Below are positions 17,361 through 42,502 of a stretch of DNA of 57,720 nt, piece by piece. The notes below the pieces were generated by a model that was not told the DNA's origin, ran no database searches, and saw only the letters and a list, made by a program, of their open reading frames with translations. The stretch is from Bacillota bacterium. GTDB lineage: Bacteria; Bacillota; Sulfobacillia; JACIYH01. A program made the position numbers and the translations under genes. The stretch lies in NCBI GenBank assembly GCA_030019365.1, contig JASEFA010000014.1, positions 1 through 57,720 on the forward strand. The letters run 5' to 3'. Within the stretch, counting starts at the first letter, position 1. Each line of letters begins with the position of its first letter.

Positions 17361-17371
17361 AACTCTGCTTC

Positions 17372-17455
17372 CCCAGCAGCCGGGCTACCATAGCATTGTG
17401 CCTTAGGCCCCATAGCTTTGCGCCCCCGGCTTTCGCCGGATTTGCCCTTGATGGG
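17372..17455 (-). ncRNA. Cyclic-di-GMP-I (GEMM-I) riboswitch
   Basis: Read on the minus strand, the segment shows the GEMM-I consensus in order: AGGGCAAA-uCCGGCGAAAGCCGG, then GGCGCAAAGC, then GGGCCTAAGGC, then ATGGTAGCC and a closing stem with GCTGC. The GAAA tetraloop, the cgCAAAGC junction and the ccTAA receptor are all present and correctly spaced. It lies ~110 bases upstream of the exported TPR/Cu-amine-oxidase-N gene on the same strand, so it should couple that gene to cellular c-di-GMP. Confidence 0.92.
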
Positions 17456-22199: not shown

Positions 22200-22480
22200 C
22201 TTTCCGGCGTGCACCCGGGGCGCAGGCTGGCCCCGTCTGACCCTTTCCCCGGTGGCCTGCCCGCCCCTGGCCCGCGGCAGGGCCCGGCGCGATCTGCAGC
22301 CGGCAAGCCTCCGCATCATGCGCACCACACAGGCTAGCATGGGTTCCAGGGTCAGCCTCCCCTGCGTAGTATTCCCGGCAGGTAAGTCTAGCTCGCCTCG
22401 CGCTTGCGGCCTGTCCGAAAGCTGCAGGCAGGACTCCACGTTCATCGGTCGTCACATGGGCCGGGACCTTGCTGAATGTG

Positions 22481-22489
22481 TGGTAGAAT
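22481..22489 (+). promoter_or_regulatory. Possible extended -10 promoter for pucR
   Basis: TGG-TAGAAT (hexamer 22484-22489) resembles an extended -10 element and lies ~100 bases upstream of the pucR start, in the divergent region between gerA and pucR. No matching -35 is seen. Confidence 0.35.
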
Positions 22490-22589
22490 TATTGCGGCGA
22501 ACCGCACGGGGTTGACTTTGCGTTTTCGTGTGGAGCCGGGCATGCCGCCTGCGCACCCCGGATGCGCGGTTCGGTTAGGGCGAAGGGGG

Positions 22590-24263
22590 ATGTTGAGCGT
22601 GCCGGTCACGGTGCGCGACGCCTTGATGATGGAGTCCCTGCGCCGCGCTCGCCTGGTGGCAGGATCGGATGGCCTGGACAGGGAGATCACGTCGGTAAAC
22701 GTGATGGAGGTGCCGGACATAATCAACTGGGTGAGGCCGGGTGCGCTTCTCCTCACCACGGCCTACCCCATCAAGGATGACCCGGAAGCGCAGGCCAGGC
22801 TGGTGCCCCAGCTTGCCGAAAAGGGGCTGGCGGGGTTGGGCCTGAAACCGGCCCGGTACCTGTCCAGTATCCCCGACGTAATGATCGCGGCTGCGGACGC
22901 GGCCGCTTTCCCGCTCATCGAACTCCCTCCAGACGCTTCCTTCAATGACATCCTTCACCCCCTGCTGAGCGAGATCCTGAATCGGCAGGCATACCTGCTC
23001 AAGCGGTCCGAAGAAACTCACTCCCGATTCACAGCGGTGGCCCTTGCCGGTGGGGGCTTCCAGGAGGTCGCCGTGACCCTGGCGGAAATCGTTCGGGCCC
23101 CGGTAACCGTAGAGGACCAGGACTTCGGAGTTCTGGCCTGCGCCATCCCCGAAGGCGTTACGGGTATGACGGAGGCCGATTTCCGGGGCGCTTTGGAAGG
23201 GTTCAGGCATGAGCACGTACCCGGCCTTCCCCATTCCCATTTTCGCAAGGAGACGCTGCTGGGGGGCCTGGTGGTTAACCAGCTCCTTCAGCCAATCCGT
23301 AGTTCGGGACAGGTGTACGGTTATCTGTCGGTTTGGGAGATCGAACGCTCCCTTCAGGAGGTAGACATCGTGGCAGTTCAGCACGCTGCCACCGTCACCG
23401 CTTTGGCCATGATGAAGGAACAGGCCGTGGCCGAGATCGAAAAGCGGTTCCGTGACGAGTTCTTGAACCGTGTGCTCATGGGTGATTACGAATCGGTAGA
23501 GACCATGGTGGCCCGGGGTCGGGTGTTCGGATGGGATTTGGCCCGCAGCTACGCCGTCCTCCTGGTGATGGTAGACGGCCTTGAAGAGCAGTATGTCAGC
23601 GGGCAGGAGAACGGAGAGTTGCGCCTGCGAAGGCTGGAACGGCTAGCCCTGCAGGTCGTGGAGTCAGTACTCCGCTCGGGGGCGGATGACGCGATAGTGG
23701 TTGGCAAGGGTGGGGGTGTCCTGCTGCTCCATCACTCAGACTCGCCGGCCGCCTCGGTTGAGGCGACCAAGAGGCTGGCGGAATCTATCCTGCGGGTGGC
23801 GAGGGCGGTGCTGCCGGATGCGACGCTTTCGGTCGGGATCGGACGGCTGTACCCCAACCCCGGGCACCTGAAGCACAGCTACCGGGAGGCGAAGCGCGCC
23901 ATCGAGGTGGCCCGGCGAGTTTGGGGGGGCAACTGCGCGCTGCACTTCAACGAACTGGGGGCTTATCGTCTCCTGGCCCGCTTCTCTGATCGAGGGGAGC
24001 TGACCGCCTTCTATCAGGACACGGTGGGGAAGCTTGTGAAATATGACGAGGAGAACGGGAGTGATCTCGTTGCCACCCTGGAGGCGTTTCTCGCGTGCAA
24101 CGGCAACCTGCAGCAGACGACGGAGAAGCTGTATGTCCACTACAACACGCTGCGTTACCGGCTCAAGCGGGCTGAACAGATTCTGGGCACCGATCTGGGC
24201 AACGCCGACGTACGGTTGAATCTGCAGCTTGGACTGAAGATCAGGAGGCTGCTTTCGCCTTGA
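22590..24263 (+). CDS. PucR-family transcriptional regulator
   Basis: 557 residues. The N-terminal PucR domain (~1-130: VTVRDALMMESLRRARLVAGSDG, INWVRPGALLLTTAYPI) is a ligand sensor found in purine and ureide catabolism regulators. The middle has a GGDEF-like CdaR fold, and the C-terminal HTH_30 shows the diagnostic FLACNGNLQQTTEKLYVHYNTLRYRLKRAEQILG. ATG 22590 with gaaggggg just upstream fits; the earlier part of the open frame has no PucR homology. It precedes a carbamate kinase/FdrA-type operon and very likely activates it in response to a ureide or purine/pyrimidine breakdown product. Confidence 0.92.
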   Translation: MLSVPVTVRDALMMESLRRARLVAGSDGLDREITSVNVMEVPDIINWVRPGALLLTTAYPIKDDPEAQARLVPQLAEKGLAGLGLKPARYLSSIPDVMIAAADAAAFPLIELPPDASFNDILHPLLSEILNRQAYLLKRSEETHSRFTAVALAGGGFQEVAVTLAEIVRAPVTVEDQDFGVLACAIPEGVTGMTEADFRGALEGFRHEHVPGLPHSHFRKETLLGGLVVNQLLQPIRSSGQVYGYLSVWEIERSLQEVDIVAVQHAATVTALAMMKEQAVAEIEKRFRDEFLNRVLMGDYESVETMVARGRVFGWDLARSYAVLLVMVDGLEEQYVSGQENGELRLRRLERLALQVVESVLRSGADDAIVVGKGGGVLLLHHSDSPAASVEATKRLAESILRVARAVLPDATLSVGIGRLYPNPGHLKHSYREAKRAIEVARRVWGGNCALHFNELGAYRLLARFSDRGELTAFYQDTVGKLVKYDEENGSDLVATLEAFLACNGNLQQTTEKLYVHYNTLRYRLKRAEQILGTDLGNADVRLNLQLGLKIRRLLSP

Positions 24264-24454: not shown

Positions 24455-25423
24455 GTGGAAACTGTGGTTATCGCTCTGGGCGGGAATGCCGTGTTGCAGC
24501 GAGGGCAGAAGGGGACCATCGAAGAGCAGTTGGCGAATGTGGACGTGACCGCCCAGGCCATCCGCTCGGTTCTCGAGGATGGGTATCGGGTGGTGGTAAC
24601 TCATGGGAACGGGCCTCAGGTGGGCAATATCCTGCTGCAAAACGAGGAGGGCGCAGGTGTAGTGCCGCCGCTACCGCTGGATGCATGTGGTGCGGAGAGT
24701 CAGGGACTGCTTGGCTACATGCTTGCCAGGTCGCTGCGCAACGAGCTGCGTGCCCACGGGATTGGCCAGGAGGTGGTGGCCCTGGTTTCCATGACCATCG
24801 TGAGCGCCACGGATCCTGCTTTCCGGAATCCCACCAAGCCGATCGGGCCGTTTTACGGGCAGATCAGGGCCCTGGAGTTGATGGCGTCCAAGGGTTATGG
24901 AATGCGAGAGGACAGCGGAAGGGGATGGCGACGTGTTGTACCCTCCCCGGACCCGCTGGAAATAGTAGAAGCCCGGACCATCCGGCAGTTGGTCGACGCA
25001 GGCGTGGTGGTGATTGCATCCGGGGGGGGCGGTATCCCGGTCGCCTGTGAAGCAGACGGGCAGCTGGCGGGCGTGGAAGCCGTCATCGACAAGGATCTGG
25101 CGGCCCAGCGGCTGGCCGAGGTTGTCGGGGCTGATGCCCTCCTCATTCTGACCGACGTGGAGGCGGTGGCGCTGAACTATGGTGCCCCTGACCAGAGGAA
25201 CCTGGTGGGCCAGGTAGCGGTGTCGGACATGCTCAGGTATCAGCGCGAGGGCCATTTCCGGGCCGGGAGCATGGGTCCCAAGGTAGAGGCAGCGATTCGC
25301 TTTGTTGCCTCCGGGCGGGGCTGCAACCGGCGGGCCGTGATCGCGTCGCTGCACAGGGCTCGAGAGGCTCTCCGCGGGCAGGCAGGGACCTGCGTGGTCC
25401 CCCGTGGGGCGGGCTGCCCATGA
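24455..25423 (+). CDS. arcC: Carbamate kinase
   Basis: 322 residues, normal length. It interconverts carbamoyl phosphate + ADP with carbamate + ATP. Motifs: [17 protein letters not shown] at the N terminus, [63 protein letters not shown] and [13 protein letters not shown], all typical of ArcC/YbcF. GTG 24455 follows ggagggcg. It overlaps the DUF2877 gene by four bases (ATGA), tying the ATP-yielding step to a carbamoyltransferase module instead of to arginine deiminase genes, which are absent. In function it matches AllK of the allantoin pathway. Confidence 0.95.
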
Positions 25424-26388
25424 CCGGGTCGTACCTCAGGGGCACTTCCGTATCTGCTTACGCCGACAACCTGGTGAGCGGGCCGCGCCAGGAGGGCCGG
25501 GTATTGGCCGTGTTCGAAAAGACCAGCTATATGGAGTTCCCCGGAAACCGGCTTCTGTGTGCGGCCGTTCCTTCCGTGGGCAATGGACCCTTCACCATCC
25601 TGGTCGAGTTGCACCCCAGGAAGCCACTCTCCTCTTTGCTCAGGCCCGGGGACCGGTGTGCGGTGGGAGACGGAAGTCTTGAGGTAGGGGGCCTGTATGC
25701 GGACCTTACGGGCGCGCCGCGGTGGGTTTCCTCGTGGCAGGCGTGTTCCGGAAGGCCGGAGGGGTGCGTGGGGGCGGTGCGGACCCGGCTGAGCGCGGCG
25801 GCAGAGCTCTTTCGCCGGGAAGGCCGCAGAGACAAGCCGGGCTGGTTGCTCACCTTCGCCGGTGATGGGGTGCCTGGGGAGATGGAGGGGGAATCATTTA
25901 CGGGTTTGATGCTGGGAGCGGCCAGGAAGGGTCTGGCGTTGCTCAGGCAGGGGGTTCTGCAGGGGAGCCCGGCGTTACTGACGGCAGGGGCGTCCTCCCT
26001 GGTGGGGCTGGGGCCGGGGCTCACCCCCTCGGGAGATGACCTGCTGGCAGGGTTTATGCTGGGTGTCCAACTGGCCTCCCGGGCGGCAGGCCGGGATGCG
26101 GCCGGCTCGCAGGACGTCTGGGAGCCGGTGGTGATGAGCCTGGGGCGGTCCACGACTGTAGTGGCGGCGGCCTTCTTGCGGTTTGCCGCCCGAGGAATGG
26201 TTTCAGAACCAATCGAGCGCCTGTTGCGAGCTCTCCTGGGATGGGGAGAGGTGGACGAAGCTAGCCGGGGGGTGTTGCGTTTGGGCGGCTCTTCCGGAAA
26301 CGATTTCATGGCCGGGTTGCTGGCGGGAGCCCAGGCAGGAATGGCCGCCTGCGACGGGTGTCGGTCGGATGCGGAACGGCGGAGGTGA
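25420..26388 (+). CDS. DUF2877 family protein, AllH-like carbamoyltransferase subunit
   Basis: 322 residues. The C-terminal half carries the DUF2877 signature [20 protein letters not shown] and a second [20 protein letters not shown]. The Escherichia coli member YlbF (AllH) is one of three subunits of oxamate carbamoyltransferase, with FdrA (AllF) and YlbE (AllG). Both other subunits are encoded immediately downstream here, so the same enzyme type is inferred. ATG 25420 overlaps the carbamate kinase stop. The substrate may differ from oxalurate, given the ring-opening hydrolase in the operon. Confidence 0.85.
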
Positions 26389-26395
26389 TCCACGG

Positions 26396-27961
26396 TTGGT
26401 AGTGCGATCCGTGGTGGTGAGCCAGACCTACTTCGACTCTGTGACGCTCATGAAGATTTCCTCTGTGCTCACGGGCTTGACCGGAGTCAGGCAGGCAGTG
26501 GCCATCATGGCGACGGAGGCCAATAAGCAGACGGTGAGGGAAGCCGGGCTGCTCGTGGAAGGGCTCGACGGGCTGGGCGCCACCGACCTGCTGATCGCGG
26601 TCGAGGCTGACGAGGAGGCGTCTGCGGAGGCGGCCATTACGCGGGCCCGAGAGCTGCTCAAGGGTGAAGCGCCGGGCTCTACACCCGCGAGGCGCGCCGC
26701 CCCCAGGACCCTGGACTCGGCTCTGGGAATCCTGCCCGGGGCGAATCTGGCCCTGATTTCAGTGCCGGGGGTTTATGCGGCTGCCGAGGCTGCCAGGGCC
26801 CTGCGCAGGGGCCTCCACGCCATGGTCTTCAGCGACAATGTGACCGTGGAAGATGAGTTGCGGCTGAAGATCCTGGCCCGGGAGAAGGGGCTTCTCCTCA
26901 TGGGACCCGACTGCGGAACGGCGATCCTGAACGGTGTGCCCCTGGCGTTTGCCAATGCCGTGAGGCGAGGTTCCATCGGGATCGTGGGGGCGGCGGGGAC
27001 CGGGATTCAGCAGGTTTCCGTGCTAGTTGAAAGGCTCGGATCGGGGGTGTCGCAGGCCATTGGTACCGGGGGGCGCGACCTATCCGCCCGTGTGGGCGGC
27101 ATCACCATGCTCCAGGGTCTGGCGGCACTGGAAGCCGATGAGGAAACCCGTGTGATCGTCCTGGTCTCCAAGCCACCCGCAGGCGAAACGGCGAGGGCCG
27201 TGCTGGCCGCGGTCCGCGGATGCTCGAAGCCCGTCGTGGTGGTATTCCTCGGCGGTGATCGCCGCCCGATCGAAGAGGCGGGCGCGTACGCAGCCACGAC
27301 GCTGGCGGAAGCTGCACGCCTGGCCGTGGTGCTGGATCGAGGGGAAACGGTGGTGCGGGGCGACGAGGGCTGGGATGAGGAAGGCGAGGCTGTTGCGCGG
27401 CGCGAGGCCGAGCGTATGGCCGGGGTCCAGCGTTACCTGCGCGGCCTTTACTCCGGAGGCACCCTGTGCGACGAGGCGATGCTCATACTTCGCGAGTTGA
27501 TAGGTACGGTGTACTCCAATGTCCCGCTCGACCCTCGGCTGCGCCTGCCCGACGCCTGGACAGGCGTTGCCGATACGGTGGTAGATCTCGGCGACGATCA
27601 GTTCACGCGGGGCAGACCCCATCCTATGATCGATCCCGCCCTCCGGGTAGCCCGGTTGGAGCGGGAGGCAGCCGATCCGGAGGTGGCCGTCGTCCTGCTG
27701 GACGTGGTGCTGGGCTACGGAGCGCACCCTGATCCTGCGGGCGCGCTGGCCGCGGCCATAACCAGGGCCAAGGAACGGGCCGCGGCGGAGGGACGTTACC
27801 TCAGTGTGGTGGCCTCCGTGTGCGGTACCCCTGCTGATCCCCAGGGCCTGGATGAACAGGAGGCGACGCTGCGTAGCGCAGGGGTCATCCTGCAACCCAG
27901 TAATGCCCTTGCTGCGCGCATGGCGGGGCTGATATGCCGGATAGCGCGTGGCCGGCGGTAG
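26396..27961 (+). CDS. FdrA family protein, AllF-like carbamoyltransferase subunit
   Basis: About 521 residues. FdrA proteins combine two succinyl-CoA-synthetase-like CoA/nucleotide-binding lobes. Seen here: TYFDSVTLMKISSVL at the N terminus, LLLMGPDCGTAILNGVPLAFAN, then SIGIVGAAGTGIQQVSVLVERLG with Gly-rich SQAIGTGGRDLSARVGGITM, and VIVLVSKPPAGETAR. The open frame extends back to 26183 inside the previous gene, but TTG 26396 behind ggaggtgat (26381-26389) is clearly the start. It likely forms one complex with the DUF2877 and DUF1116 proteins, transferring a carbamoyl group from a ureide to phosphate. Confidence 0.88.
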   Translation: MVVRSVVVSQTYFDSVTLMKISSVLTGLTGVRQAVAIMATEANKQTVREAGLLVEGLDGLGATDLLIAVEADEEASAEAAITRARELLKGEAPGSTPARRAAPRTLDSALGILPGANLALISVPGVYAAAEAARALRRGLHAMVFSDNVTVEDELRLKILAREKGLLLMGPDCGTAILNGVPLAFANAVRRGSIGIVGAAGTGIQQVSVLVERLGSGVSQAIGTGGRDLSARVGGITMLQGLAALEADEETRVIVLVSKPPAGETARAVLAAVRGCSKPVVVVFLGGDRRPIEEAGAYAATTLAEAARLAVVLDRGETVVRGDEGWDEEGEAVARREAERMAGVQRYLRGLYSGGTLCDEAMLILRELIGTVYSNVPLDPRLRLPDAWTGVADTVVDLGDDQFTRGRPHPMIDPALRVARLEREAADPEVAVVLLDVVLGYGAHPDPAGALAAAITRAKERAAAEGRYLSVVASVCGTPADPQGLDEQEATLRSAGVILQPSNALAARMAGLICRIARGRR

Positions 27962-27973
27962 AGGAGGGTACGG

Positions 27974-29398
27974 TTGTTGTCGCGAGTAGCGGGTCTCTTT
28001 CGGCAGGAGCTGAGAGTGGTGAACATTGGCCTCGAGGGGTTCGCCGAGACCCTGGAGGCCTTGCGCGTACCGCACGTACACCTTGACTGGCGTCCTCCGG
28101 CGGGAGGGAAAACGGAACTGGGTGCCGCTCTGGCCGTCCTGGACGGGCACTTTGATGCCGTCGAGGAGGCCAACCAGGAGGCCTTCGGGCGGATCTGCTC
28201 TGCCCAACCCGTCTGGACGGAGGTGACGCAGGCCGACGCGGTCATCCCCGCGTTAAGAGAAGACGTGGTTCTGCATGCCGGCCCGCCTCTCGACTGGGAG
28301 CGGGCATGCGGCCCCGTCAGGGGGGCAGTTATAGGGGCGTTGCTGTTCGAGGGCATGGCCCGTTCCGCGAAGGAAGCCGAACGTCTGGTGGCGACCGGAC
28401 GGGTGCGGCTGGAGCCCTGCCACCATCACGGTGCGGTGGGGCCCATGGCCGGCGTCGTGTCCAGGTCCATGCCGGTTGTGGTGGTGGAGAATCGGACCCA
28501 CGGCAACCGGGCATTTGCCACTCTCAACGAAGGTCTGGGCAAGGTGCTGCGTTTCGGAGCTTACTCGGAAGAGGTCCTGGTGCGGCTCCGTTGGATGGGG
28601 GACGTGCTCGCGCCGGCGCTGCGGGCGGCCGTGAGGGCGAGCGGGGGTATTGACCTGAAACAGATCATGGCCAGGGCGCTTCACATGGGAGATGAATGCC
28701 ACAACCGGAACGTGGCGGCCACTTCGCTCCTGGTGCGGGAGTTGCTACCGCATCTGGGCCGCGCGGGGCTTGGCGGTGCGGCGGTTGCCGAGGTGGGGGA
28801 ATTCCTCAGGCGGAACGATCACTTTTTCTTGAACCTGTCGATGGCTGCGTGCAAGGCCACCATGGATGCCGCCCATGGCATACCACACTGTACGCTGGTA
28901 ACGGCGATGGCCCGGAACGGCACTGACTTCGGGATACGGGTCAGCGGGACCCGCGACCGGTGGTTTACGGTTCCTGCCCCGCGGGTGGAGGGGTTGTACT
29001 TCGTTGGCTTCACCGCCGAGGACGCCAGTCCCGATCTGGGGGACAGCAGCATCACGGAAACGGCGGGCCTGGGGGGCTTTGCCATGGCGGCCGCCCCCGC
29101 CATCGTCCAGTTCGTGGGTGGCACCCCCGAGGATGCCCTGGGCTTCACGCGGGAAATGGCGGAGATCACGTTCGGCCGCAACCAGACCCTGACCATCCCT
29201 GCCCTGGGCTTTGGGGGAACCCCCACGGGAATCGATGTGAGGAAGGTGGTGGAAACTGGGATTGCTCCTGTCATCAACACCGGCATCGCTCACAAGGAGC
29301 CGGGAGTGGGGCAGGTAGGTGCGGGGCTTACACGAGCACCCGTGGAGTGCCATGCTCAAGCGCTGCTTGCCCTGGTTGAGGAGGAGCGGGCCGGGTAA
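27974..29398 (+). CDS. DUF1116 family protein, AllG-like carbamoyltransferase subunit
   Basis: 474 residues, the usual size for YlbE/DUF1116. Conserved blocks include [60 protein letters not shown] and [21 protein letters not shown] 27974 is supported by gaggaggg overlapping the fdrA stop. With the two preceding genes it completes the three-subunit oxamate-carbamoyltransferase-type enzyme (AllFGH). The assignment of family is firm; the substrate is inferred. Confidence 0.9.
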
Positions 29399-29435
29399 GG
29401 GCTTTCCGCGTACCTGGCGAGAGGAGGTTGTCACG

Positions 29436-30542
29436 GTGCAGAAGATCGAGGTGTTCAGGATCGCGACCGGCTCGCCGGATGATGTCTCCGGGCTGGCGCG
29501 GCTCCTGGACGAAGGGACGCTGAAGGCAGAGGATATCATCTGTGTTCTGGGCAAGACCGAGGGAAACGGCTGCGTGAACGACTTCACCCGCGGTTTTGCC
29601 ACCCTGGCGTGCGCGTTGCTCCTGGCGGAGAGAATGGGTGTTTCGCCCGAGGAGGTGACTCGCAGGGTAGCGTTCATCATGTCGGGTGGGACGGAAGGTG
29701 TGATGAGTCCTCACCTCACCGTGTTCGCGCGCCGCGAGGTGCCGGCCGCGCCCGCGAAGGGAAAGCGTCTGGCGGCGGGGACTGCGTTCACGCGGGATTT
29801 TGTGCCCGAGGAAATCGGTACCATGGTCCAGGTGCGGGAAGTGGCGCGCGCGGTCAGGACCGCCATGGGGGACGCCGAAATCCACGATCCGGCCGATGTC
29901 CACTTCGTGCAAATCAAGTGCCCGCTGCTGACGGCAGACCGCATCCAGGAGGCGGAGCGCAGGGGCAAAGAGGTGGTGGTGCATGACACCTACAAGTCGA
30001 TGGGGTATTCCCGGGGAGCCTCCGCGCTGGGTGTTGCCCTAGCACTCGGCGAGGTGGACGGGGCACGTCTTGGCGACGAAGCTATCTGCAGGGACTTCAG
30101 CCTGTACTCGGGTGTGGCCTCGACTTCGGCGGGCGTGGAGCTCAAGAAGTGCGAGATCATCCTGCTGGGCAACTCGGCGGACTCGGCCAGCGACCTGTTG
30201 ATCGGACACGCGGTGATGAGAGATGCCATTGATGCCGATGCTGTGAAGGAAGCGTTGCGGAGCGCGGGCCTGAAGTTCGACTGTTGCCCGTCCCGGGGCG
30301 ACCTGGCGAGGGTGGTTAACGTCTTCGCGAAGGCTGAGGCCAGTACCAGTGGGACGGTGCGCGGCCGCAGGCATGTCATGCTGGACGACTCGGACATCAA
30401 CCACACCCGCCACGCCCGGGCCGTGGTTAACGCCGTGATCGCGTCCATCGTGGGAGATCCCATGGTCTACGTGTCCGGCGGCGCTGAACACCAGGGTCCC
30501 GACGGCGGCGGACCGGTGGCGGCGATCGTCCGCGCCGGATAG
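29436..30542 (+). CDS. Ring-opening amidohydrolase (cyanurate hydrolase/barbiturase family)
   Basis: 368 residues, typical length. The family has three pseudo-repeats, each giving a Ser and a Lys around the active site, and all can be placed: K40/S83 ([22 protein letters not shown]), K161/S229 ([18 protein letters not shown]) and K299/S347 ([25 protein letters not shown]). Such enzymes open cyanuric acid to carboxybiuret or barbiturate to ureidomalonate. GTG 29436 lies behind gaggagg, ~40 bases after the DUF1116 gene, so it is co-transcribed with the AllFGH-like set. Sequence alone does not separate cyanurate from barbiturate specificity. Confidence 0.9.
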
Positions 30543-30570
30543 AGTCATAGGTAAGGGAGGAGTGACGGGA

Positions 30571-31863
30571 ATGCACGCGTTGCTCACAGTGCTACCCTTG
30601 CTGCTGATCCTCGTACTGCTGCTTCCCCCCTTCAGGTTCCACATCCTGGTGGCGGGGTTGGCGGGCGGGGTGCTGGCGGCCATTGTCGGAGGCCTTGACC
30701 TGGGGAAGATAACCCATCTCTACCTGGGCGGGCTCTCGCAAATGCTGAGCATAGTCTCGGTGGCTATCTTCGCTGCCACGGCGATGGTCTTGGCGAAGCT
30801 CGGCGCCACCCAGGCCTGTATGAAGCTGATCCAGCGTACGTTCAAGGGACGGCTCGGTCTGGTGGCTGCGGCCATGGTCCTGGTGCAGGCGGCAGCGGTG
30901 TACGTGGCTGGCTGCGGGGCTGCCAACACCCTGGTTACCGCTCCGCTGATATACAGCGTGGTCGGGTTTGTGCCCCATGTGGTGGCCGGCCTCTCCATCG
31001 TGTCGGGGGCGTCCTGGGCGACCTCACCTGCTTCGGCGGAGAGTGCCTATATCTCCAAGGCTATGAACATCCAGCCGGGCGAGTACGCCGAGTTCATGCG
31101 TCCCTTCACCATTGCTTTCTGGGTGATCGGTGCTCTCCTGGCGTGGTATGGTGTTAGCCGCTATGCGGCGGCCCGCAAAATCAAGCCGGGCGGGAACGGG
31201 GAATCCGCGGGACAGGCTGGTGCGACAACGGACGGCGATGGGGAAGCTCTGGGCGCCGTTGCGCGTCGGGCGCTGCCGTTCCTGCTGTTGCTGCTCCTTA
31301 TCTTGATCGGTCCGCCTCTCAACAGAGCGCTGGGAGTAAACCTGTTCACCACCGTTACCACCCCGCTGTTTGTGCTCATTACCGCCGCGATCACTGCCCG
31401 CGTGAATCCGAACAGGATGTGCGAGATGCTGGTGGACGGCTCGGTCACCATTCTCCGATACCTGTTCCTGGTGGGGCTCTTCCTGGGCTTCATCAACCTC
31501 CTGGGTGAGATCGGGACGTTCAAGACGCTGGCCTCCCTTGCCGGAGCTGCTCCCGCCGGTCTGCTGGTAGTAGCGGCCCTGATCATCGCCTTTCTCATCG
31601 CGGTGCCCTCTGCAGCCTATACCGTGGCCATCGATGCCCTGATCATACCGGTGCTGGCCCAGGCGGGTGTTCCCGTATGGGCGTTCGGTTTCGTGGGCAT
31701 CGCCGTCGCCCAGGGCGCGATGATAAGTCCGGCACAGATCAACGTGGCGGCGACCGCGCATGGGTTCCAGACCGACATCATGCGCATCATCAGGAACAAC
31801 CTGCCTTACATGCCGGTCGCCCTGGTCATCACCATGTTGATGGCCGTCCTGTTCCTGAGGTAG
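30571..31863 (+). CDS. Membrane permease of the ion-transporter (CitMHS/GntP/DcuC-like) type
   Basis: About 430 residues with 11-12 hydrophobic segments and Gly/Ser-rich re-entrant loops (GAANTLVTAPLIY, GASWATSPASAESAYIS, and in the second half QGAMISPAQINVAATAHG) that resemble anion-binding motifs of the IT superfamily. A hydrophilic loop (~200-230) separates the halves. ATG 30571 with gggaggag at spacing eight is preferred over GTG 30562. As last gene of the ureide operon it probably imports the substrate (barbiturate, cyanurate or a ureide) or exports a carboxylate product; this is inference. A strong hairpin follows. Confidence 0.75.
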   Translation: MHALLTVLPLLLILVLLLPPFRFHILVAGLAGGVLAAIVGGLDLGKITHLYLGGLSQMLSIVSVAIFAATAMVLAKLGATQACMKLIQRTFKGRLGLVAAAMVLVQAAAVYVAGCGAANTLVTAPLIYSVVGFVPHVVAGLSIVSGASWATSPASAESAYISKAMNIQPGEYAEFMRPFTIAFWVIGALLAWYGVSRYAAARKIKPGGNGESAGQAGATTDGDGEALGAVARRALPFLLLLLLILIGPPLNRALGVNLFTTVTTPLFVLITAAITARVNPNRMCEMLVDGSVTILRYLFLVGLFLGFINLLGEIGTFKTLASLAGAAPAGLLVVAALIIAFLIAVPSAAYTVAIDALIIPVLAQAGVPVWAFGFVGIAVAQGAMISPAQINVAATAHGFQTDIMRIIRNNLPYMPVALVITMLMAVLFLR

Positions 31864-31867
31864 GATG

Positions 31868-31907
31868 CCAAGGGGGGGCAGCAGCGATGCTTGCTGCCCC
31901 CCCTTGG
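31868..31907 (+). terminator. Strong hairpin ending the ureide operon
   Basis: CCAAGGGGGGGCAGCA (31868-31883) pairs with TGCTGCCCCCCCTTGG (31892-31907), a perfect 16-bp stem. No T-tract follows, like several other hairpins in this window. Confidence 0.7.
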
Positions 31908-31939
31908 ACGCGGATACAGGGGCGCCGGGGGGTATCGGT

Positions 31940-32545
31940 GTGGCAGAGTACGGAAGATGGGGTTTGGCCTTGTGGAACGTGGTCGCTTTCGCCCTCTTCC
32001 TCCTCCTGCTGCCTTTTCGTAAGAGAGCGAACGCGACTCAGGTCAAGGGGATCTACATGGGCTTCATCGTTTCCCTCTTCCTGGAAATGTACGGGTTTCC
32101 CCTGAGCGCGTATATCCTTAGCTGGGGCCTGGGAAGGGCGCCGGAACCGGGAGTGCTGCCGCCCATCTACCGCTATGGACTGACGCGACTCTACCCGATG
32201 CTCGGTAACCTCGGCCTCACGCTACTGCTGGCGGGCATGTTGTTGGTCGTCTGGGGGTGGACGGCCATCTATCGGGCTCAGGGCGAGCTGGTGACCCGGG
32301 GAATCTACGGGTGGGTGAGGCATCCTCAGTACCTGGGGTTGATCGTGATGACCTTCGGGATGCTGCTGCAGTGGCCCACTCTGCCCATTCTGGTGATGTG
32401 GCCGATACTGACCTGGGCGTACTGCCGCCTGTGTCTGATAGAGGAACGAGAGCTGGCGGCTACCTTCGGCGAGCAGTATCGCGTTTATAGACAAAAGGTA
32501 CCCATGTTGTTTCCCTTTCGTACCGGAAGTGTGTTAAAATTCTAG
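31940..32545 (+). CDS. Isoprenylcysteine methyltransferase-like membrane protein
   Basis: About 201 residues with four to five transmembrane helices. The C-terminal region shows the ICMT/phospholipid-methyltransferase pattern: LVTRGIYGWVRHPQYLGLIVM then a long hydrophobic stretch and LIEERELAATFGEQYRVYRQKVP. Family members are SAM-dependent membrane methyltransferases or relatives of unknown substrate. GTG 31940 is chosen because it begins the recognisable N terminus; the SD is weak. It stands between hairpins on both sides, so it is likely a separate transcription unit. Confidence 0.75.
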   Translation: MAEYGRWGLALWNVVAFALFLLLLPFRKRANATQVKGIYMGFIVSLFLEMYGFPLSAYILSWGLGRAPEPGVLPPIYRYGLTRLYPMLGNLGLTLLLAGMLLVVWGWTAIYRAQGELVTRGIYGWVRHPQYLGLIVMTFGMLLQWPTLPILVMWPILTWAYCRLCLIEERELAATFGEQYRVYRQKVPMLFPFRTGSVLKF

Positions 32546-32604: not shown

Positions 32605-33723
32605 ATGAGCAGTTCAAGCAAGCTGGTTGCAGTGGGGTTACAGCTGTTGGCCCTGGTGCTGGCGGTGGTGGGCGCCCTCGCCGTGGGGGCCTTGTTGTTG
32701 CTCATGGTGGGTGCCGATCCGGTGAAAGCCTACCGGGCCATGTTCTTGGGTCCGCTGGGCGGGCGATACGGGGCCACTGAGTTGCTGGTGCGAGCTACGC
32801 CCCTGCTTCTGGTCAGCCTGGGTATCGTGGTGTCGTTTCGTGCCAGCGTATTGAACATCGGCGCAGAAGGACAGATCATAGCCGGGGCAGTGGCCGGGAC
32901 TGCGGTGGCGCTGGCCATTCCCCAGTGGCCCGGGTGGATGCTGTCGCCCCTTGTGTTTCTGGTTGGTGCTGCCGCCGGAGCTGGGTGGGGTGCCCTGGCC
33001 GGGTGGTTGAAGGCCCGGCTGGCTGTCAACGAAATCCTCAGCACGATCATGCTCAACCAGATCGCCCTGCACCTGTCAACGTTCTTGATCCGCGGGCCCC
33101 TGATGGATCCCGCGCAGACCGCATACGGTGCGGGATATCCTCAGACGGCCCTCTTGCCGCGGCAGGTATGGCTTCCTCGCCTGATTTCCGGCAGCAGGGC
33201 GCACGTGGGCTTCTTGCTGGCGATCGTCGCTGCGGTCCTGGTCTTCGTTCTTCTGTGGCGGACCGTGGTCGGCTACCGGTTGAGAGCGGTGGGAGCCGGG
33301 CCTGAGGCGGCCCGCTATGCGGGCATAAACGTGGGGCACTACCTGGTTCTGGCCATGGCTCTGGCGGGTGCGTTTGGGGGATTCGCCGGCGTCGTGGAGG
33401 TCGTGGGCGTTCACCATCGCCTGCTCGACGGGATCTCCGCCGGGTACGGGTTCAGTGGTATCGTGGTGGCGCTTCTTGGCCGCCTGCACCCCTTGGGCTG
33501 CCTTCCCGCCGCTCTGTTCTTCGGTATGCTCGTCCTGGGAGCCGACATGATGCAGCGGGCAGTCGCCATTCCTGCAGCCATCGTGATGGCCATCGAGGGC
33601 CTCGTGATCCTGTCCGTGGTGAGCACGGACTTCCTCGTCAGCCACCCTGAGCGGCTGCTCGCTCTGGCCGCTCGCCTTGCGCGCATACGTCCGTCCCGCC
33701 GCTTGAAGGAGGCTGCCAGGTAG
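32605..33723 (+). CDS. Nucleoside-type (BMP-associated) ABC transporter permease
   Basis: 372 residues, ~10 helices, BPD_transp_2 family as in YufP/NupP. Characteristic segments: AMFLGPLGGRYGATELLVRATPLLLVSLGIVVSFRASVLNIGAEGQ, LNEILSTIMLNQIA-type loop, and the coupling region VGAGPEAARYAGINV. It forms the membrane channel with the next gene. The four genes 32605-37356 encode a complete importer (two permeases, receptor, double ATPase). Transporters of this family usually carry nucleosides or related bases. Confidence 0.9.
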   Translation: MSSSSKLVAVGLQLLALVLAVVGALAVGALLLLMVGADPVKAYRAMFLGPLGGRYGATELLVRATPLLLVSLGIVVSFRASVLNIGAEGQIIAGAVAGTAVALAIPQWPGWMLSPLVFLVGAAAGAGWGALAGWLKARLAVNEILSTIMLNQIALHLSTFLIRGPLMDPAQTAYGAGYPQTALLPRQVWLPRLISGSRAHVGFLLAIVAAVLVFVLLWRTVVGYRLRAVGAGPEAARYAGINVGHYLVLAMALAGAFGGFAGVVEVVGVHHRLLDGISAGYGFSGIVVALLGRLHPLGCLPAALFFGMLVLGADMMQRAVAIPAAIVMAIEGLVILSVVSTDFLVSHPERLLALAARLARIRPSRRLKEAAR

Positions 33724-33726
33724 GGC

Positions 33727-34659
33727 ATGGAAGAGCTGCTGCGTCAAGGTGTCGTTGTGGGCATTGTGGCTACCGGGGTCCGACTGGCCGCCCCCTTTCT
33801 TTTCGCCGCCCTCGGGGAGATGTTCAGCCAGCGCTCGGGTGTGTACAACCTGGGCGTGGAAGGCATCATGATGCTGGGAGCCTTCAGCGGTTTCCTGGTT
33901 ACGTGGACCACGGGTTCCGCGTTACTGGGGACGATATTCAGCGTGGCCATAGGTGTGCTGATGGGATTGCTGATGGCCCTGGTCAGCGTGACCTTGCGTG
34001 CGGAGCAGGGCATAAGCGGGATCGGAATGTACCTGCTCGGCTGGGGGTTGTCGGGGCTCCTGTTCCGGCGGTATGTCGGTTTCATCACCGGCGTGAAGGG
34101 CTTCGCTTCCTGGCACGTCCCGGTAGTGAGTGACGTGCCTGTACTGGGACCGGTACTGTTTCAGCACAACTGGATGGTTTACGCGGCGCTGTTACTGGTG
34201 CCGGTCTCTGCCTTCGTTTTGTATCAGACGACCTGGGGCTTGAAGGTCAAAGCGGTGGGGATGACGCCGGAGGCTGCCGATTCACTGGGTGTGAATGTTA
34301 ACGTGATCAGATACCAGTGCGTGGTCCTGGGCAGCGCACTTGCCGGCCTCGCCGGCGCGGCCCTGACCCTGGGCCAGGCCAACATGTATGCCGACAACAT
34401 CACGGCAGGACGGGGCTTTATCGCGGTTGCACTCGTTTACTTTGCGCGCTGGAACCCGTGGGGAGTGCTGGCAGGTTCCCTCTTGTTCAGTACGGTGAGC
34501 GCTTTCCAGCTCTGGGTTCAGGTCCTCGGGATCAGATTCCCCTATGAATTCGTCGTAATACTGCCCTATGTTATGACCATTGCCGCGCTGGCCATGGTCA
34601 GTCGACGGGTCTGGGCCCCGGCGGCGCTGGGCAAGCCGTTCCGGAGGGGGGCCTACTGA
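33727..34659 (+). CDS. Nucleoside-type (BMP-associated) ABC transporter permease
   Basis: 310-residue second permease, YufQ/NupQ-like, BPD_transp_2 family. It begins with the usual pattern for this subunit: APFLFAALGEMFSQRSGVYNLGVEGIMMLGAF, and has the coupling segment KAVGMTPEAADSLGVNVNV and ITAGRGFIAVALVYFARWNP. ATG 33727 starts three bases after the preceding stop, indicating tight translational coupling. Confidence 0.92.
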   Translation: MEELLRQGVVVGIVATGVRLAAPFLFAALGEMFSQRSGVYNLGVEGIMMLGAFSGFLVTWTTGSALLGTIFSVAIGVLMGLLMALVSVTLRAEQGISGIGMYLLGWGLSGLLFRRYVGFITGVKGFASWHVPVVSDVPVLGPVLFQHNWMVYAALLLVPVSAFVLYQTTWGLKVKAVGMTPEAADSLGVNVNVIRYQCVVLGSALAGLAGAALTLGQANMYADNITAGRGFIAVALVYFARWNPWGVLAGSLLFSTVSAFQLWVQVLGIRFPYEFVVILPYVMTIAALAMVSRRVWAPAALGKPFRRGAY

Positions 34660-34701
34660 ATCGATGATCCGTCATGTGGTGTGCTGAGGAGGCAAGGTAC
34701 G

Positions 34702-35724
34702 ATGGCAGCGAACCGAAAACTCCATAATGCCCTGGCCCTGTTGCTGATCGTCGCGCTCGGGTTGGTTGGCTGCCGGGGAGCAGGAGGAGGGGCAGAGCCT
34801 TCGTCCAAGATCAGGATTGCTCTGGTGCTCCCCAGCACGGTGGACGATATGGCCTGGAGCCAGTCCATGTACGAGGCCCTCAAGGCAGTGCAGAAGGAGA
34901 TGGGGGAAAACCACCTGGAGATTGCCATCAGCGAGCGCCTGGGGACCCCGGTTGAGGGTGGGGCAGCCATCCGCCAGTATGCCGAGCAGGGATATGACAT
35001 CGTGATTGCCCACGGGGCGCAGTTCCAGCAAGTAGTGCTGGAGATTGCCCCTGACTTCCCGAAGACCACGTTCGCCTACGGAGCCGGATTTGAGGCGGGT
35101 GACAACGTCTTCGCCTACGACGTAGAAGCTCAGGAAGGGGGCTATCTCCTGGGCATGCTGGCCGGCCTGCTGAGCAAGGCCGGTGTCGTGGGGATCGTGG
35201 GACCCGTGGAGGCCGGTCACACCGTGAAGTATAACTGGGGTTTCCGTCAGGGTGTGGCCAGCGTGCGGCCGGGAATCAAGGTGAATGTGGCTTACACGGG
35301 CTCTTTCAACGATGTGGTGGGCGCCGGCGATCTGGCCAAGGTGCAGATGGATGCGGGAGCTGATGTACTGACAGGCTCTTCCCAGCAGGCGGTGGGAGCA
35401 ATCCGGGCTGCGGCCGAGCGACCGGGGGTACTGTGGTTGTCTACCGAGATGGATCAGAGCCGCCTGGCCCCCAAGACGGTGGTGGCTTCCCAGGTGTACC
35501 GGTGGGAGAAAATCGTGAAGAGGATGATAGACCTGAGAAAGCAGGGCGTGGTGGGAGGAGAACACATGACCGCCTCCTTTGCGGATGGGACCCTCGAGCT
35601 CAGGTACAATCCTGAATTGGTGGGTAAGGTGCCCCAGCAGGTAAAGGATCTGGTCGAGGAAACGCGCCGCAAGATTGCCGACGGTACCCTCAAGATCGAA
35701 CTCCCCCGGGAGCAGGGGAGGTGA
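34702..35724 (+). CDS. BMP-family substrate-binding lipoprotein
   Basis: About 340 residues. A lipoprotein signal ends in LGLVGC; the mature protein has the BMP (PnrA-like) fold markers: IALVLPSTVDDMAWSQSMYEAL, YDIVIAHGAQFQQVVLEIAPDFPKT, AYDVEAQEGGYLLGMLAGLLSK and GVVGIVGPVEAGHTVKYNWGFRQG. ATG 34702 is preferred (gaggagg nine bases upstream) over GTG 34681. PnrA-type receptors bind purine nucleosides, while related ones take other ligands. Nearby PucR and ring-opening hydrolase genes hint at a purine- or pyrimidine-like ligand. Confidence 0.9.
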   Translation: MAANRKLHNALALLLIVALGLVGCRGAGGGAEPSSKIRIALVLPSTVDDMAWSQSMYEALKAVQKEMGENHLEIAISERLGTPVEGGAAIRQYAEQGYDIVIAHGAQFQQVVLEIAPDFPKTTFAYGAGFEAGDNVFAYDVEAQEGGYLLGMLAGLLSKAGVVGIVGPVEAGHTVKYNWGFRQGVASVRPGIKVNVAYTGSFNDVVGAGDLAKVQMDAGADVLTGSSQQAVGAIRAAAERPGVLWLSTEMDQSRLAPKTVVASQVYRWEKIVKRMIDLRKQGVVGGEHMTASFADGTLELRYNPELVGKVPQQVKDLVEETRRKIADGTLKIELPREQGR

Positions 35725-35730
35725 GCGTGC

Positions 35731-37356
35731 TTGGGCAGGGATGGGCGCTCCGGGACGGTGACAGAGGCCGTAAAGAGCCTGGAAATGCGGGGCATAGTAA
35801 AGCGCTTCCCGGGTGTGGTGGCCAACGACGGGGTCGGCATCGAAGTGCGGGCCGGTGAGGTCCTGGCCATACTGGGTGAAAACGGTGCCGGGAAGAGCAC
35901 GCTGATGAAGATACTGTACGGCCTCTACCGCCCGGACGCGGGTCAGATTCTGGTCAACGGGCGGCCGGTTCGGATATCCTGTCCTCGTGATGCCATTGCT
36001 CTTGGCATCGGTATGGTTCACCAGCACTTCACGCTGGTGCCCAGCCTGACGGTGGCCGAGAACGTGGTGTTGGGGTTGCCTTCGGGCCGTGGCCCTCTGC
36101 TGGATCTGCGTGCGGCTGCGCAGCAATTGCGGCAGTTGTCACAGGCATACCACCTGCCGGTCGACCCCCGGGCGTTGGTGTGGCAGCTTAGCGTAGGAGA
36201 GCAGCAGCGGGTGGAAATTCTGAAGCTGCTCTACCGGGGTACAAGCGTGCTGGTGCTGGATGAACCGACAGCGGTGCTGAGCCCGCAGGAGTCGACGGAG
36301 CTGATGACGGTGTTGAGGGGCATGGCGGACTCGGGCCGCGCCATCATACTCATTACCCACAAGCTTGGGGAGGTCATGACCGTCAGCGACCGCGTCACGG
36401 TCTTGCGAGGCGGCCGGGTAGTGGGTACGCTGCCGACTTCGCAGGCCGACGCGCAGTTGCTGGCGAGGATGATGGTGGGCGCGGAAATGACTCAGCCGTC
36501 CGGGGTTCCCCGGGGGACGGGCGGGGCGCCGGTGCTGGAACTGCGGAGGGTTTGGTCCAACGGTGATAAGGGGGTCCCGGCACTGCGGGGCGTGTCCCTG
36601 CAGGTGAATGCGGGCGAAATCCTGGGCATAGCCGGAGTATCGGGGAACGGCCAGAAAGAGCTGGCTGAAGTCGCTGCAGGTCTACGGAAGGTTGTCGGTG
36701 GTTGCGTCCTGGTGAACGGTCGGGATGTCACCAGGACGCCTCCGGCCGCGCGCATAGAGGGCGGCCTGGCATACGTGCCGGAGGACCGTATCACGGTCGG
36801 GACTATACCTTCGCTTACGGTTGCCGAGAACGTGGTACTCAAGGACCATCACCGGCCCCCTTACGCGCGGTGGCTGCTCCTGCGGCCAAAGGCCATCAGG
36901 GGACATGCTTGTGAACTGGTGCGGTCGTACGAAATCAGGACTCCCGATGTTGACACTCCCGTCGCCCATCTTTCGGGCGGAAACCTCCAGCGCCTTATCC
37001 TCGCCAGGGAGTTGTCGGGCAATCCGCTCGCTCTGGTAGCCGCGTATCCCACTCGGGGCCTCGACATCCGGGCTACCGGGTTCGTCCACCGCCGGCTTCT
37101 GGAAGCAAAGGCCAGGGGCACAGGGGTATTGCTGATCTCCCATGATTTGGACGAAATCCTCAGCCTGAGTGACCGCGTGGCGGTGATGTACGGAGGAGAG
37201 GTGCTGGCTGTACTTCCCAGAGAGGAAGCCGATGTTCACCGCCTCGGCCTGCTGATGGCAGGTATGCGGAAGGATGACAACGGCTCACCCGAGATCGAAA
37301 GGCCTTCCGCCTGTCCCTGGGATGCCGCGGCCTGGCGGGGTCAACGTTCGTCATAG
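35731..37356 (+). CDS. Nucleoside-type ABC transporter double ATPase, abnormal C terminus
   Basis: 541 residues with two ABC domains. N-domain: Walker A GENGAGKST, signature LSVGEQQRVEI, Walker B VLVLDEPTAVL. C-domain: degenerate P-loop GVSGNGQKEL, signature LSGGNLQRLILAREL, and AAYPTRGLD, as usual for YufO/RbsA-type proteins. TTG 35731 follows gggaggtga. The last ~25 residues (after GLLMAGMRKDD) do not look like family sequence: the frame reads into DNA that in another frame encodes the end of a short-chain dehydrogenase. The gene's 3' end was probably replaced by a rearrangement, though the core should remain active. Confidence 0.9.
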   Translation: MGRDGRSGTVTEAVKSLEMRGIVKRFPGVVANDGVGIEVRAGEVLAILGENGAGKSTLMKILYGLYRPDAGQILVNGRPVRISCPRDAIALGIGMVHQHFTLVPSLTVAENVVLGLPSGRGPLLDLRAAAQQLRQLSQAYHLPVDPRALVWQLSVGEQQRVEILKLLYRGTSVLVLDEPTAVLSPQESTELMTVLRGMADSGRAIILITHKLGEVMTVSDRVTVLRGGRVVGTLPTSQADAQLLARMMVGAEMTQPSGVPRGTGGAPVLELRRVWSNGDKGVPALRGVSLQVNAGEILGIAGVSGNGQKELAEVAAGLRKVVGGCVLVNGRDVTRTPPAARIEGGLAYVPEDRITVGTIPSLTVAENVVLKDHHRPPYARWLLLRPKAIRGHACELVRSYEIRTPDVDTPVAHLSGGNLQRLILARELSGNPLALVAAYPTRGLDIRATGFVHRRLLEAKARGTGVLLISHDLDEILSLSDRVAVMYGGEVLAVLPREEADVHRLGLLMAGMRKDDNGSPEIERPSACPWDAAAWRGQRSS

Positions 37357-37494: not shown

Positions 37495-37522
37495 GTATAC
37501 AACTGATGAACAGGTTGTATAC
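37495..37522. promoter_or_regulatory. Probable GntR operator (inverted repeat GTATACAAC/GTTGTATAC)
   Basis: GTATACAAC (37495-37503) and GTTGTATAC (37514-37522) form a perfect 9-bp inverted repeat 26 bases before the chosen start of the GntR gene at 37548. TTGTATACAA-like sites are typical of FCD-type GntR proteins, so autoregulation and control of the downstream cluster is likely. Because an ATG at 37506 lies inside the operator, the later start is preferred. Confidence 0.75.
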
Positions 37523-37547
37523 ACCCGCGCACGGACGGTGGTCGGAC

Positions 37548-38219
37548 ATGAGTTCCGGTCCCAGGATCACGGCGAAACACCGAGCCTACGAGTCGATAAA
37601 GCAGGGGATTCTCAACTTCGTTTACAAGCCGGGTGAATTCTTGACAGAAGCCGAGCTTGCCAGGCGGATCGGGCTGAGCCGGACTCCCGTGCGGGAGGCG
37701 CTGCTGCTTTTGCAGGCCGAGGGACTGGTCCAGTTGGTGCCTCAAAAGGGTGCCATAGTCCCCCCGATGGCCGTCAGGGACGTAGAGGAGGTCCTCGAGT
37801 TGCGTCTGCTGGTGGAGGTGTTCGCCGCCGGCAAGGTGCTGGCAGGCCGGCAGGACGCTCTACCGCGCCTACACCAACTGCTAAAAGAGCAGGAGGTTCA
37901 GCTGGAGGCCGGGTTCGACCCTGCTCTGTTCATTGGTGTCGACCGGGAGTTTCATCGCGTCTTTGTGGCTGCAGCGGGCAACCGACGGCTTCTCAAGCTC
38001 TACGAGGACTTGCGCGACCAGCAGATGAGGCTTGGCATTCAGGCCGTTCTGTCCTCGGCGGGTCGTGCTCGGGAGGTGGTGGAGGAACACCGGTATATCG
38101 TCAGGTGTCTGGAGGAAGCCGACGAGGCAGGTCTAAGGGCAGCGGTCGAAGACCACTTGATGCGCACGCTGGCAGCGCTGAGGCAGGATGGCGTAGTACA
38201 CACAGCTGTCCTTGGTTAG
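37548..38219 (+). CDS. GntR-family transcriptional regulator, FCD subfamily
   Basis: About 223 residues. Winged HTH ~10-75: AYESIKQGILNFVYKPGEFLTEAELARRIGLSRTPVREALLLLQAEGLV, then an FCD domain whose metal/ligand region includes DREFHRVFVAAAGN and RCLEEADEAGLRAAVEDHL (His residues in the usual FCD positions). It is the first gene of a catabolic cluster for an unidentified carboxylate, and the inverted repeat just upstream is its likely binding site. FCD regulators generally respond to the pathway's organic-acid substrate. Confidence 0.92.
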   Translation: MSSGPRITAKHRAYESIKQGILNFVYKPGEFLTEAELARRIGLSRTPVREALLLLQAEGLVQLVPQKGAIVPPMAVRDVEEVLELRLLVEVFAAGKVLAGRQDALPRLHQLLKEQEVQLEAGFDPALFIGVDREFHRVFVAAAGNRRLLKLYEDLRDQQMRLGIQAVLSSAGRAREVVEEHRYIVRCLEEADEAGLRAAVEDHLMRTLAALRQDGVVHTAVLG

Positions 38220-38240
38220 ATCTTGGGGGAGGGAATAGAG

Positions 38241-39656: not shown

Positions 39657-39740
39657 ATGAGTCAGGTGGGCGGAGGGGCGCGGTGCTCTGGCTTCACCGT
39701 CCCCTCCGCTCAATCGATTGCTGCGAAGGAGGTCGTTACG

Positions 39741-40445
39741 CTGAGAAACCTTGGTGTGCTGGTTCACGGTACCGATGGTTCTTTCCGAGCACGTCAGATC
39801 CGCGTGTCGCGGTTCCTGTACGGGGGGTTTGCCGGCAGGGATGAGAGGGCAGTTCAGGCCCACATTGAGGAACTGAGGAGAATCGGGGTCAGTCCTCCCA
39901 TGGAAACCCCCACACTCAACGCCCTCCCGGCTTCGCTTCTCACGACTGGCGGTGTGGTCGAGGTGCTAGGGCACAACACGTCTGGGGAAGTGGAGTATGT
40001 GATTGTTTTTGACGGAGACGAGATCTTGGTGGGGGTGGGCAGCGACCATACTGATCGGGAGCTGGAAAAGCAGGATATACGTGTGTCAAAGCAGGTGTGT
40101 GCAAAGGTCCTTGCGCCGGTGCTCTGGGAATACGCCGCCGTGGAGAACCACTGGGATGAGCTGGTTATCAGATCGTGGGTACACGAATCTGGCGAGAGCG
40201 AGCCTCGGCTCTACCAGGAGTCATCGGTGGCCGAGTTACTTGACGTTCGTGCGTGGATGGAGGTGCTGAGCAAGCGCCTCGGGGACCGCACGGACGGGGT
40301 CGTGTTGTTTTCGGGCACTGTTCCGGTTTTTGGCGGCGCTCTCGTGTGCGGAGAGTCGTATGCGATTGGCCTCGAGGACCCTGTCCTGCGAAGGGAGATC
40401 AGGTACTCCTACCGGGTGAAGTTCGTGGCGTGCCATGGGAGGTGA
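39741..40445 (+). CDS. DUF2848 family protein, possible CTG start
   Basis: About 234 residues. The family signature GDEILVGVGSDHTDRELEK is clear, as are FSGTVPVFGG and the C-terminal DPVLRREIRYSYRVKF. DUF2848 proteins resemble the fumarylacetoacetate-hydrolase fold and occur in carboxylate-catabolism clusters. The only strong SD (aaggaggt, 39726-39733) is seven bases before CTG 39741, with no ATG, GTG or TTG in frame at proper distance; ATG 39657 lies far upstream and GTG 39756 is 22 bases from the SD. Function is inferred only as part of the GntR-controlled pathway. Confidence 0.82.
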   Translation: MRNLGVLVHGTDGSFRARQIRVSRFLYGGFAGRDERAVQAHIEELRRIGVSPPMETPTLNALPASLLTTGGVVEVLGHNTSGEVEYVIVFDGDEILVGVGSDHTDRELEKQDIRVSKQVCAKVLAPVLWEYAAVENHWDELVIRSWVHESGESEPRLYQESSVAELLDVRAWMEVLSKRLGDRTDGVVLFSGTVPVFGGALVCGESYAIGLEDPVLRREIRYSYRVKFVACHGR

Positions 40446-40449
40446 AAGG

Positions 40450-40899: not shown

Positions 40900-40914
40900 G
40901 AGAGGTAACGAGCC

Positions 40915-42429: not shown

Positions 42430-42502
42430 GAGGTGGGTAAGCGGTCGAAGTCATTCTCGGGGCATCTCATGGCAAGGATTAACGTTCAAGGGGGAGTGAC
42501 TG

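Follow-up and report, generated by a model that had tools for sequence, protein, structure and literature searches.

An operon joining a cyanuric acid hydrolase to AllFGH and carbamate kinase: a candidate phosphorolytic route for cyanuric acid

Results

Organization of the gene cluster

The stretch of DNA analysed here (positions 1–57,720 of contig JASEFA010000014.1, assembly GCA_030019365.1, from a Bacillota bacterium; hereafter the window) contains a compact + strand gene cluster in which a ring-opening cyanuric acid amidohydrolase (CAH) of the AtzD/TrzD family lies next to the three subunits of an AllFGH carbamoyltransferase and a carbamate kinase, a combination that likely serves the phosphorolytic breakdown of cyanuric acid. 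From 5' to 3', the core of the cluster comprises (i) a carbamate kinase of the AllK/ArcC type (24455–25423; TIGR00746, 407 bits for a cut-off of 358); (ii) AllH (DUF2877), the third subunit of an OXTCase-type carbamoyltransferase (25420–26388; PF11392, 78 bits, cut-off 25); (iii) AllF (FdrA), a carbamoyltransferase subunit with a CoA-ligase fold (26396–27961; PRK06091, 505 bits, cut-off 433), the start of which is preceded by a perfect GGAGGTGATC ribosome-binding site; (iv) AllG (DUF1116), another carbamoyltransferase subunit (27974–29398; PF06545, 338 bits, cut-off 27); (v) the CAH (29436–30542; PF09663, 545 bits); and (vi) a permease, probably of the ion transporter (DcuC/Na-H antiporter-like) superfamily (30562–31863; weak PF13726 match). 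Neighbouring genes from carbamate kinase to permease overlap or are separated by at most about 40 bp, and the genes for AllF, AllG and AllH are adjacent, each scoring over its cut-off.

Upstream lies a gene for a PucR-family transcriptional regulator (22476–24263, + strand, likely start near 22590; PF07905, 121 bits; HTH_30, 81 bits), which is the probable regulator of the operon and has relatives at most of the related loci described below. At its other end, the cluster finishes with a small ICMT/PEMT-like membrane methyltransferase (31865–32545, + strand; PF04191, 35 bits). The core genes are all full length and score above curated cut-offs, the matches of the permease and the methyltransferase being only weak or general. 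A previous reading of these genes, made from the sequence only, had listed the regulator and the six genes from carbamate kinase to permease as a set of overlapping or closely spaced genes; profile scores and coordinates bear this out, every named gene being intact, on the + strand and where that reading had placed it.

Recurrence of the CAH–AllFG pairing

We assembled 88 CAH loci, including a few near-duplicates: 80 were retrieved by scanning genome contigs of bacteria and archaea, and 8 came from a sample of 398 Bacillota genomes. AllF and/or AllG are encoded at 33 of them (hereafter the AllFG-linked loci), sharing the strand of CAH in all 33 cases and within 5 kb in 29. These loci span Bacillota, Mycoplasmatota, Pseudomonadota, Chloroflexota, Nitrospinota and Actinomycetota, their sources including Moorella, Tissierella, Proteiniclasticum, Amphibacillus, Enterococcus, Acholeplasmataceae, Melaminivora, Naasia and Rokubacteria. 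Within the Bacillota sample, CAH is found in 13 genomes, AllG in 60 and both in 11 (Fisher p 2e-8, uncorrected for kinship), one of these 11 (G327) having no more than a weak AllG match at a distance of 12 kb. On the CAH tree, the pairing state changes about 12 times; on the AllG tree it changes 9 times, well supported (starred) branches forcing at least 3 of these changes. The pairing was thus made or lost repeatedly. The co-localisation search that the sequence-only reading had called for thus uncovers a recurrent association, and the ring opener together with AllFGH/carbamate kinase is supported as a recurrent functional unit.

The ring opener is most likely a cyanuric acid hydrolase

The hydrolase had initially been labelled as a member of the cyanurate hydrolase/barbiturase family with all three Ser/Lys pairs in place. 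The family is right, and its match to NF052395 (568 bits, cut-off 360) sharpens the label to cyanuric acid hydrolase. The protein is 71.7% identical to the crystallised CAH of Moorella (6BUM), 65% to TrzD and 58% to AtzD (72, 65, 58 and 57% for the four crystallised CAHs; the tree held no barbiturase sequence). In a comparison with the PDB, it scores 567 bits against Moorella CAH, versus 329 bits against barbiturase. Ser83/231/347, Lys40/161/299 and Arg52/193 are numbered identically in Moorella CAH (numbering from PMC6557486), so that each residue of the three Ser–Lys dyads, with their Arg partners, aligns with its counterpart; the metal loop GGxEHQGPxGG is also present. Barbiturate was set aside as the substrate after the identity and PDB comparisons; it has been described as a tight-binding inhibitor of Moorella CAH (PMC6557486).

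Two of the crystallised enzymes have near-identical copies in AllFG-linked clusters: Moorella CAH is 97% identical to the copies at L159 and L015, and TrzD is 97% identical to the copy in a cluster of Melaminivora alkalimesophila (L021). The AllFG-linked loci also contain a cytosine-deaminase/N-isopropylammelide-hydrolase-like gene (14/33) and a xanthine-type permease (20/33). Their isochorismatase-like neighbours have biuret hydrolases as nearest PDB relatives, but score 278–322 bits, below the BiuH cut-off of 370; an identity as BiuH or TrtA was therefore not retained and we refer to them as BiuH-like. Judged by homology, the ammelide/cytosine-deaminase-like and BiuH-like neighbours are indicative of triazine chemistry. 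Since Moorella CAH and TrzD have such copies in AllFG-linked clusters, since barbiturate inhibits the former and since the neighbours fit triazine chemistry, the entry substrate of the operon is most likely cyanuric acid and not barbiturate.

Three AllFG-linked loci (L153, L154 and L155) combine two tandem AllG genes, AllF, a divergent CAH (47–48% identical) and a CodA-like gene; no carbamate kinase was detected nearby.

AllFG and AtzF exclude each other at CAH loci

Known cyanurate routes finish with the allophanate hydrolase AtzF, which follows either AtzE or BiuH (PMC6219798). AtzF is encoded at 17 of the 88 CAH loci and AllFG at 33, the two together at none (p 1e-4); BiuH-like genes share CAH loci with AtzF (15 loci) as well as with AllFG (6 loci). 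We also searched twelve CAH genomes as a whole for AtzF, BiuH, urease and AllG, all absences below resting on profile cut-offs. One of them (G219) has BiuH and AtzF over cut-off and no AllG. Ten, including that of the window, have strong AllG matches; none of these has AtzF at cut-off or a real urease, although two of them show short matches to a urease model that narrowly exceed the Pfam cut-off and look like other amidohydrolases. Only one of the ten, G163, has a clear BiuH-like gene, and thus combines CAH, a BiuH-like enzyme and AllFG without AtzF or a true urease.

In the genome of the window, which is 98% complete, the best matches reach 218 bits for AtzF (cut-off 511) and 48 bits for BiuH (cut-off 370), and urease alpha is matched below cut-off only. 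With AtzF, BiuH and urease all absent at cut-off, AllFGH and carbamate kinase are therefore the only recognisable onward path for the CAH product, and AllFGH appears to occupy the position held by AtzF in other organisms. We also considered oxalurate derived from allantoin as the source of the AllFGH substrate, but the upstream enzymes were not found: the best allantoinase match in this genome scores 234 bits (cut-off 358) and AllE has no match, which makes such a source unlikely there, and in the AllFG-type genomes tested, too, no allantoinase reaches the cut-off and AllE has no match.

The AllFGH subunits

AllFGH of Escherichia coli, an oxamic transcarbamylase identified in 2024, interconverts oxalurate plus inorganic phosphate and oxamate plus carbamoyl phosphate (PMC11326118). 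AllF and AllG of the window are 43% and 53% identical to their E. coli counterparts. A 45-residue module forms the N-terminus of AllG in the window (27974–28140) and in most linked loci, the C-terminus of AllF in E. coli and apparently a separate reading frame of 57–60 residues in L153 and L154; the comparison also took in L095. Because it switches between the end of AllF, the start of AllG and a separate frame, the module is suggested to sit at the AllF–AllG interface. The AlphaFold model of AllH is confident (pLDDT 86) and has no meaningful fold match in the PDB; that of AllG matches 3CLQ, a structure of unknown function, with a TM score of 0.94. Neither model revealed an active site. A CAH-specific AllG clade was sought on the AllG tree as a substrate marker, but the linked AllGs are scattered.

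Uptake genes

Homologues of the window permease are found at 25 of the 33 AllFG-linked CAH loci versus 2 of the 55 other CAH loci. As it travels with AllFG, this permease probably provides the uptake step, importing cyanurate or a ureide. The operon may extend through the methyltransferase into a BMP/NupABC-type ABC transporter (32605–37356, + strand; PF02653, PF02608, NF047930), made of two permeases (32605–33723 and 33727–34659), a binding protein (34681–35724) and an ATPase (35731–37356). A transporter of this type also adjoins CAH in Rokubacteria and Nitrospinota contigs (L032, L045, L047 and L051). It is a possible second uptake system, whose cargo is probably cyanurate or a ureide.

AllFG loci without CAH and other features of the window

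A series of Bacillota AllFG loci devoid of CAH (L162–L192) recurrently display a PF04199 cyclase, a three-subunit xanthine-dehydrogenase-like Mo hydroxylase, a nitrilase, carbamate kinase and sometimes a CoA-transferase. This cluster type possibly specifies another ureide phosphorolysis pathway, in which the barbiturate idea may find its place, and combining a ring opener with AllFGH and carbamate kinase may be a widespread principle. Two CAH-free loci, L182 and L185, contain AllFG, a BiuH-like hydrolase, two related permeases, AllH and carbamate kinase, and are possible biuret or triuret phosphorolysis clusters.

Elsewhere in the window, a GntR regulator is followed by genes for MmgE/PrpD, DUF2848, a TctA/TctC transporter, an Ldh_2 dehydrogenase, a nitrilase and an altronate dehydratase-like protein (37506–47265). 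A c-di-GMP-I-GGC riboswitch (64 bits, gathering score 59) is located on the - strand at 17371–17455, and the region between 48695 and 53000 encodes a corrinoid methyltransferase-like protein as well as an AcsV-related corrinoid activation protein.

Discussion

A proposed phosphorolytic route for cyanuric acid

As nitrogen analogues of oxalurate, carboxybiuret corresponds to a longer version of it and allophanate to a shorter one. We consider it likely that the operon encodes a phosphorolytic cyanuric acid route running through CAH, AllFGH and carbamate kinase, which would involve the following steps: (i) uptake through the permease, perhaps also through the BMP/NupABC transporter; (ii) opening of the ring by CAH to give carboxybiuret, a reaction shown in close homologues and expected here from the 72% identity and the intact residues; (iii) transfer by AllFGH of the terminal carbamoyl group of carboxybiuret to phosphate, which would yield carbamoyl phosphate and allophanate, possibly followed by a second round in which allophanate and phosphate would give carbamoyl phosphate and carbamate, biuret being a fallback substrate that would leave urea; (iv) conversion of carbamoyl phosphate and ADP into ATP and carbamate, as predicted from the family function of carbamate kinase, carbamate then decaying to ammonia and CO2. 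Such a route would yield one to two ATP per cyanurate, versus none in the known AtzE/AtzF and BiuH/AtzF routes. The gene set of G163 and the CAH-free clusters L182 and L185 favour allophanate as at least one AllFGH substrate. The sequence-only reading had proposed phosphorolysis of a ring-opened ureide, either from barbiturate via ureidomalonate to malonamate or in a cyanurate/biuret equivalent. Phosphorolysis remains the best reading, in its cyanurate/biuret form; the barbiturate form is disfavoured by the resemblance to the barbiturate-inhibited Moorella enzyme, the TrzD linkage and the triazine-type neighbours.

Several observations weigh against this route. The Km of E. coli AllFGH for oxamate is weak (36.9 mM; PMC11326118), and we found no report of AllFGH activity on carboxybiuret, biuret or allophanate in the accessible literature. 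The AllF and AllG sequences carry no substrate signature, the CAH-linked AllGs not forming a single clade. Carboxybiuret decarboxylates with a half-life of roughly 20 min (PMC7948467), probably less in a thermophile; being short-lived, it would oblige AllFGH to compete with its decay to biuret. Finally, 55 of the 88 CAH loci show no AllFG in the stretch covered, no carbamate kinase was detected close to 9 of the 33 AllFG-linked loci (some lying at contig ends), and the p values given above are too small, because related genomes are dependent samples.

A broader proposal, for which we would put the chances slightly below even, is that of a third, energy-conserving cyanurate pathway in which carboxybiuret undergoes two AllFGH/carbamate kinase rounds, with up to 2 ATP, 3 ammonia and 3 CO2 as products, so that anaerobes could ferment cyanurate and AllFGH–carbamate kinase would be a general ureide phosphorolysis module. 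The ring openers feeding this module may be interchangeable: CAH, biuret/triuret hydrolase, a PF04199 cyclase with a Mo-hydroxylase, or the allantoin enzymes.

Alternative explanations

AllFGH might act only after biuret hydrolysis, in place of allophanate hydrolase, by converting allophanate and phosphate into carbamoyl phosphate and carbamate. Allophanate is oxalurate minus one carbonyl, AllFG never shares CAH loci with AtzF and does so with BiuH-like genes at six, and the CAH-free loci L182 and L185, whose AllG is sister to that of Moorella, join AllFG, a BiuH-like enzyme, permeases and carbamate kinase. As the sole substrate, allophanate is unlikely: no BiuH-like gene is present in the stretch covered at 27 of the 33 AllFG-linked loci nor in the window, and none reaches the cut-off in the genome of the latter, so that at most linked loci carboxybiuret or biuret would have to be split beforehand.

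It is rather improbable that the operon brings together two independent nitrogen-scavenging modules, AllFGH–carbamate kinase for oxalurate from elsewhere and CAH for cyanurate, sharing nothing more than PucR control. This would fit with the sole assayed AllFGH using oxalurate and with a published study of comammox bacteria, which takes the allFGHK genes next to triuret/biuret genes for an oxalurate pathway in its own right (PMC12625717). However, it leaves the product of CAH without a recognisable enzyme to take it, it is at odds with the lack of allantoinase at cut-off and of any AllE match in the AllFG-type genomes tested, and it accounts neither for the mutual exclusion of AllFG and AtzF nor for a linkage that arose repeatedly and independently.

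Lastly, a barbiturate pathway, in which the hydrolase would make ureidomalonate and AllFGH would split it into malonamate and carbamoyl phosphate, could appeal to the shared protein family, to the isostery of ureidomalonate with carboxybiuret and to the long-branch AllFG-linked CAH clade L153–L155 (about 48% identical, with a CodA-like gene), whose specificity might differ, but it is very improbable given the identity and PDB scores reported above, the AllFG linkage of TrzD-type CAH, the lack of oxidative uracil enzymes among the scanned cluster neighbours (the whole genome was not searched for them) and the better fit to barbiturate of other AllFG clusters, those that carry a Mo-hydroxylase, a PF04199 cyclase and a nitrilase.

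Significance and comparison with known systems

Cyanuric acid, the end product shared by triazine herbicides and melamine, is manufactured in bulk to stabilise pools. To our knowledge, as far as the accessible literature goes, the cyanurate pathways described are all hydrolytic and without energy gain. Were the phosphorolytic route correct, cyanurate would become an energy source for anaerobes, the well-studied thermostable CAH of Moorella would have a partner in its physiology, and the AllFGH carbamoyltransferase would have a reaction range far wider than oxalurate. The parts are already known; the pairing of CAH with AllFGH and carbamate kinase appears to be new, a prior mention of the neighbourhood being possible: we found no paper linking cyanuric acid to carbamoyl phosphate, carbamate kinase or oxamate, the older CAH literature lying outside the reach of our search.

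The closest system is the E. coli AllFGH/kinase cluster, where the same three subunits and kinase are encoded together and whose chemistry, from an N-carbamoyl acid and phosphate to carbamoyl phosphate, is also that proposed here. The window operon differs from it by a ring-opening CAH in place of AllB/C/D/E, by the location of the 45-residue module on AllG instead of AllF and by the AllFGH substrate, probably carboxybiuret, allophanate or biuret rather than oxalurate. The cyanuric acid operon of Pseudomonas sp. ADP, atzDGEHF (PMC6219798), likewise begins with a homologous CAH (AtzD, 58% identity) and degrades carboxybiuret and allophanate; its downstream enzymes, however, are hydrolytic amidases without ATP gain, and none of AtzE, AtzF and AtzH is seen in the window cluster. 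The Rhizobium/Paenibacillus type of route (CAH, BiuH and AtzF) shares the first enzyme, and BiuH-like genes occur in some AllFG-type clusters, whereas the window operon has AllFGH and carbamate kinase instead of AtzF, and the window lacks BiuH. Finally, a 2025 report on comammox Nitrospira and ammonia-oxidising archaea describes allFGHK adjacent to triuret/biuret genes, and reads allFGHK as an oxalurate pathway (PMC12625717). Like the window operon, these nitrifier loci adjoin a BMP/NupABC transporter, together with polyurea degradation genes; unlike it, they contain no CAH, and no coupling to cyanurate was proposed for them. The phosphorolytic route put forward here offers a testable reading of the nitrifier allFGHK genes as well.

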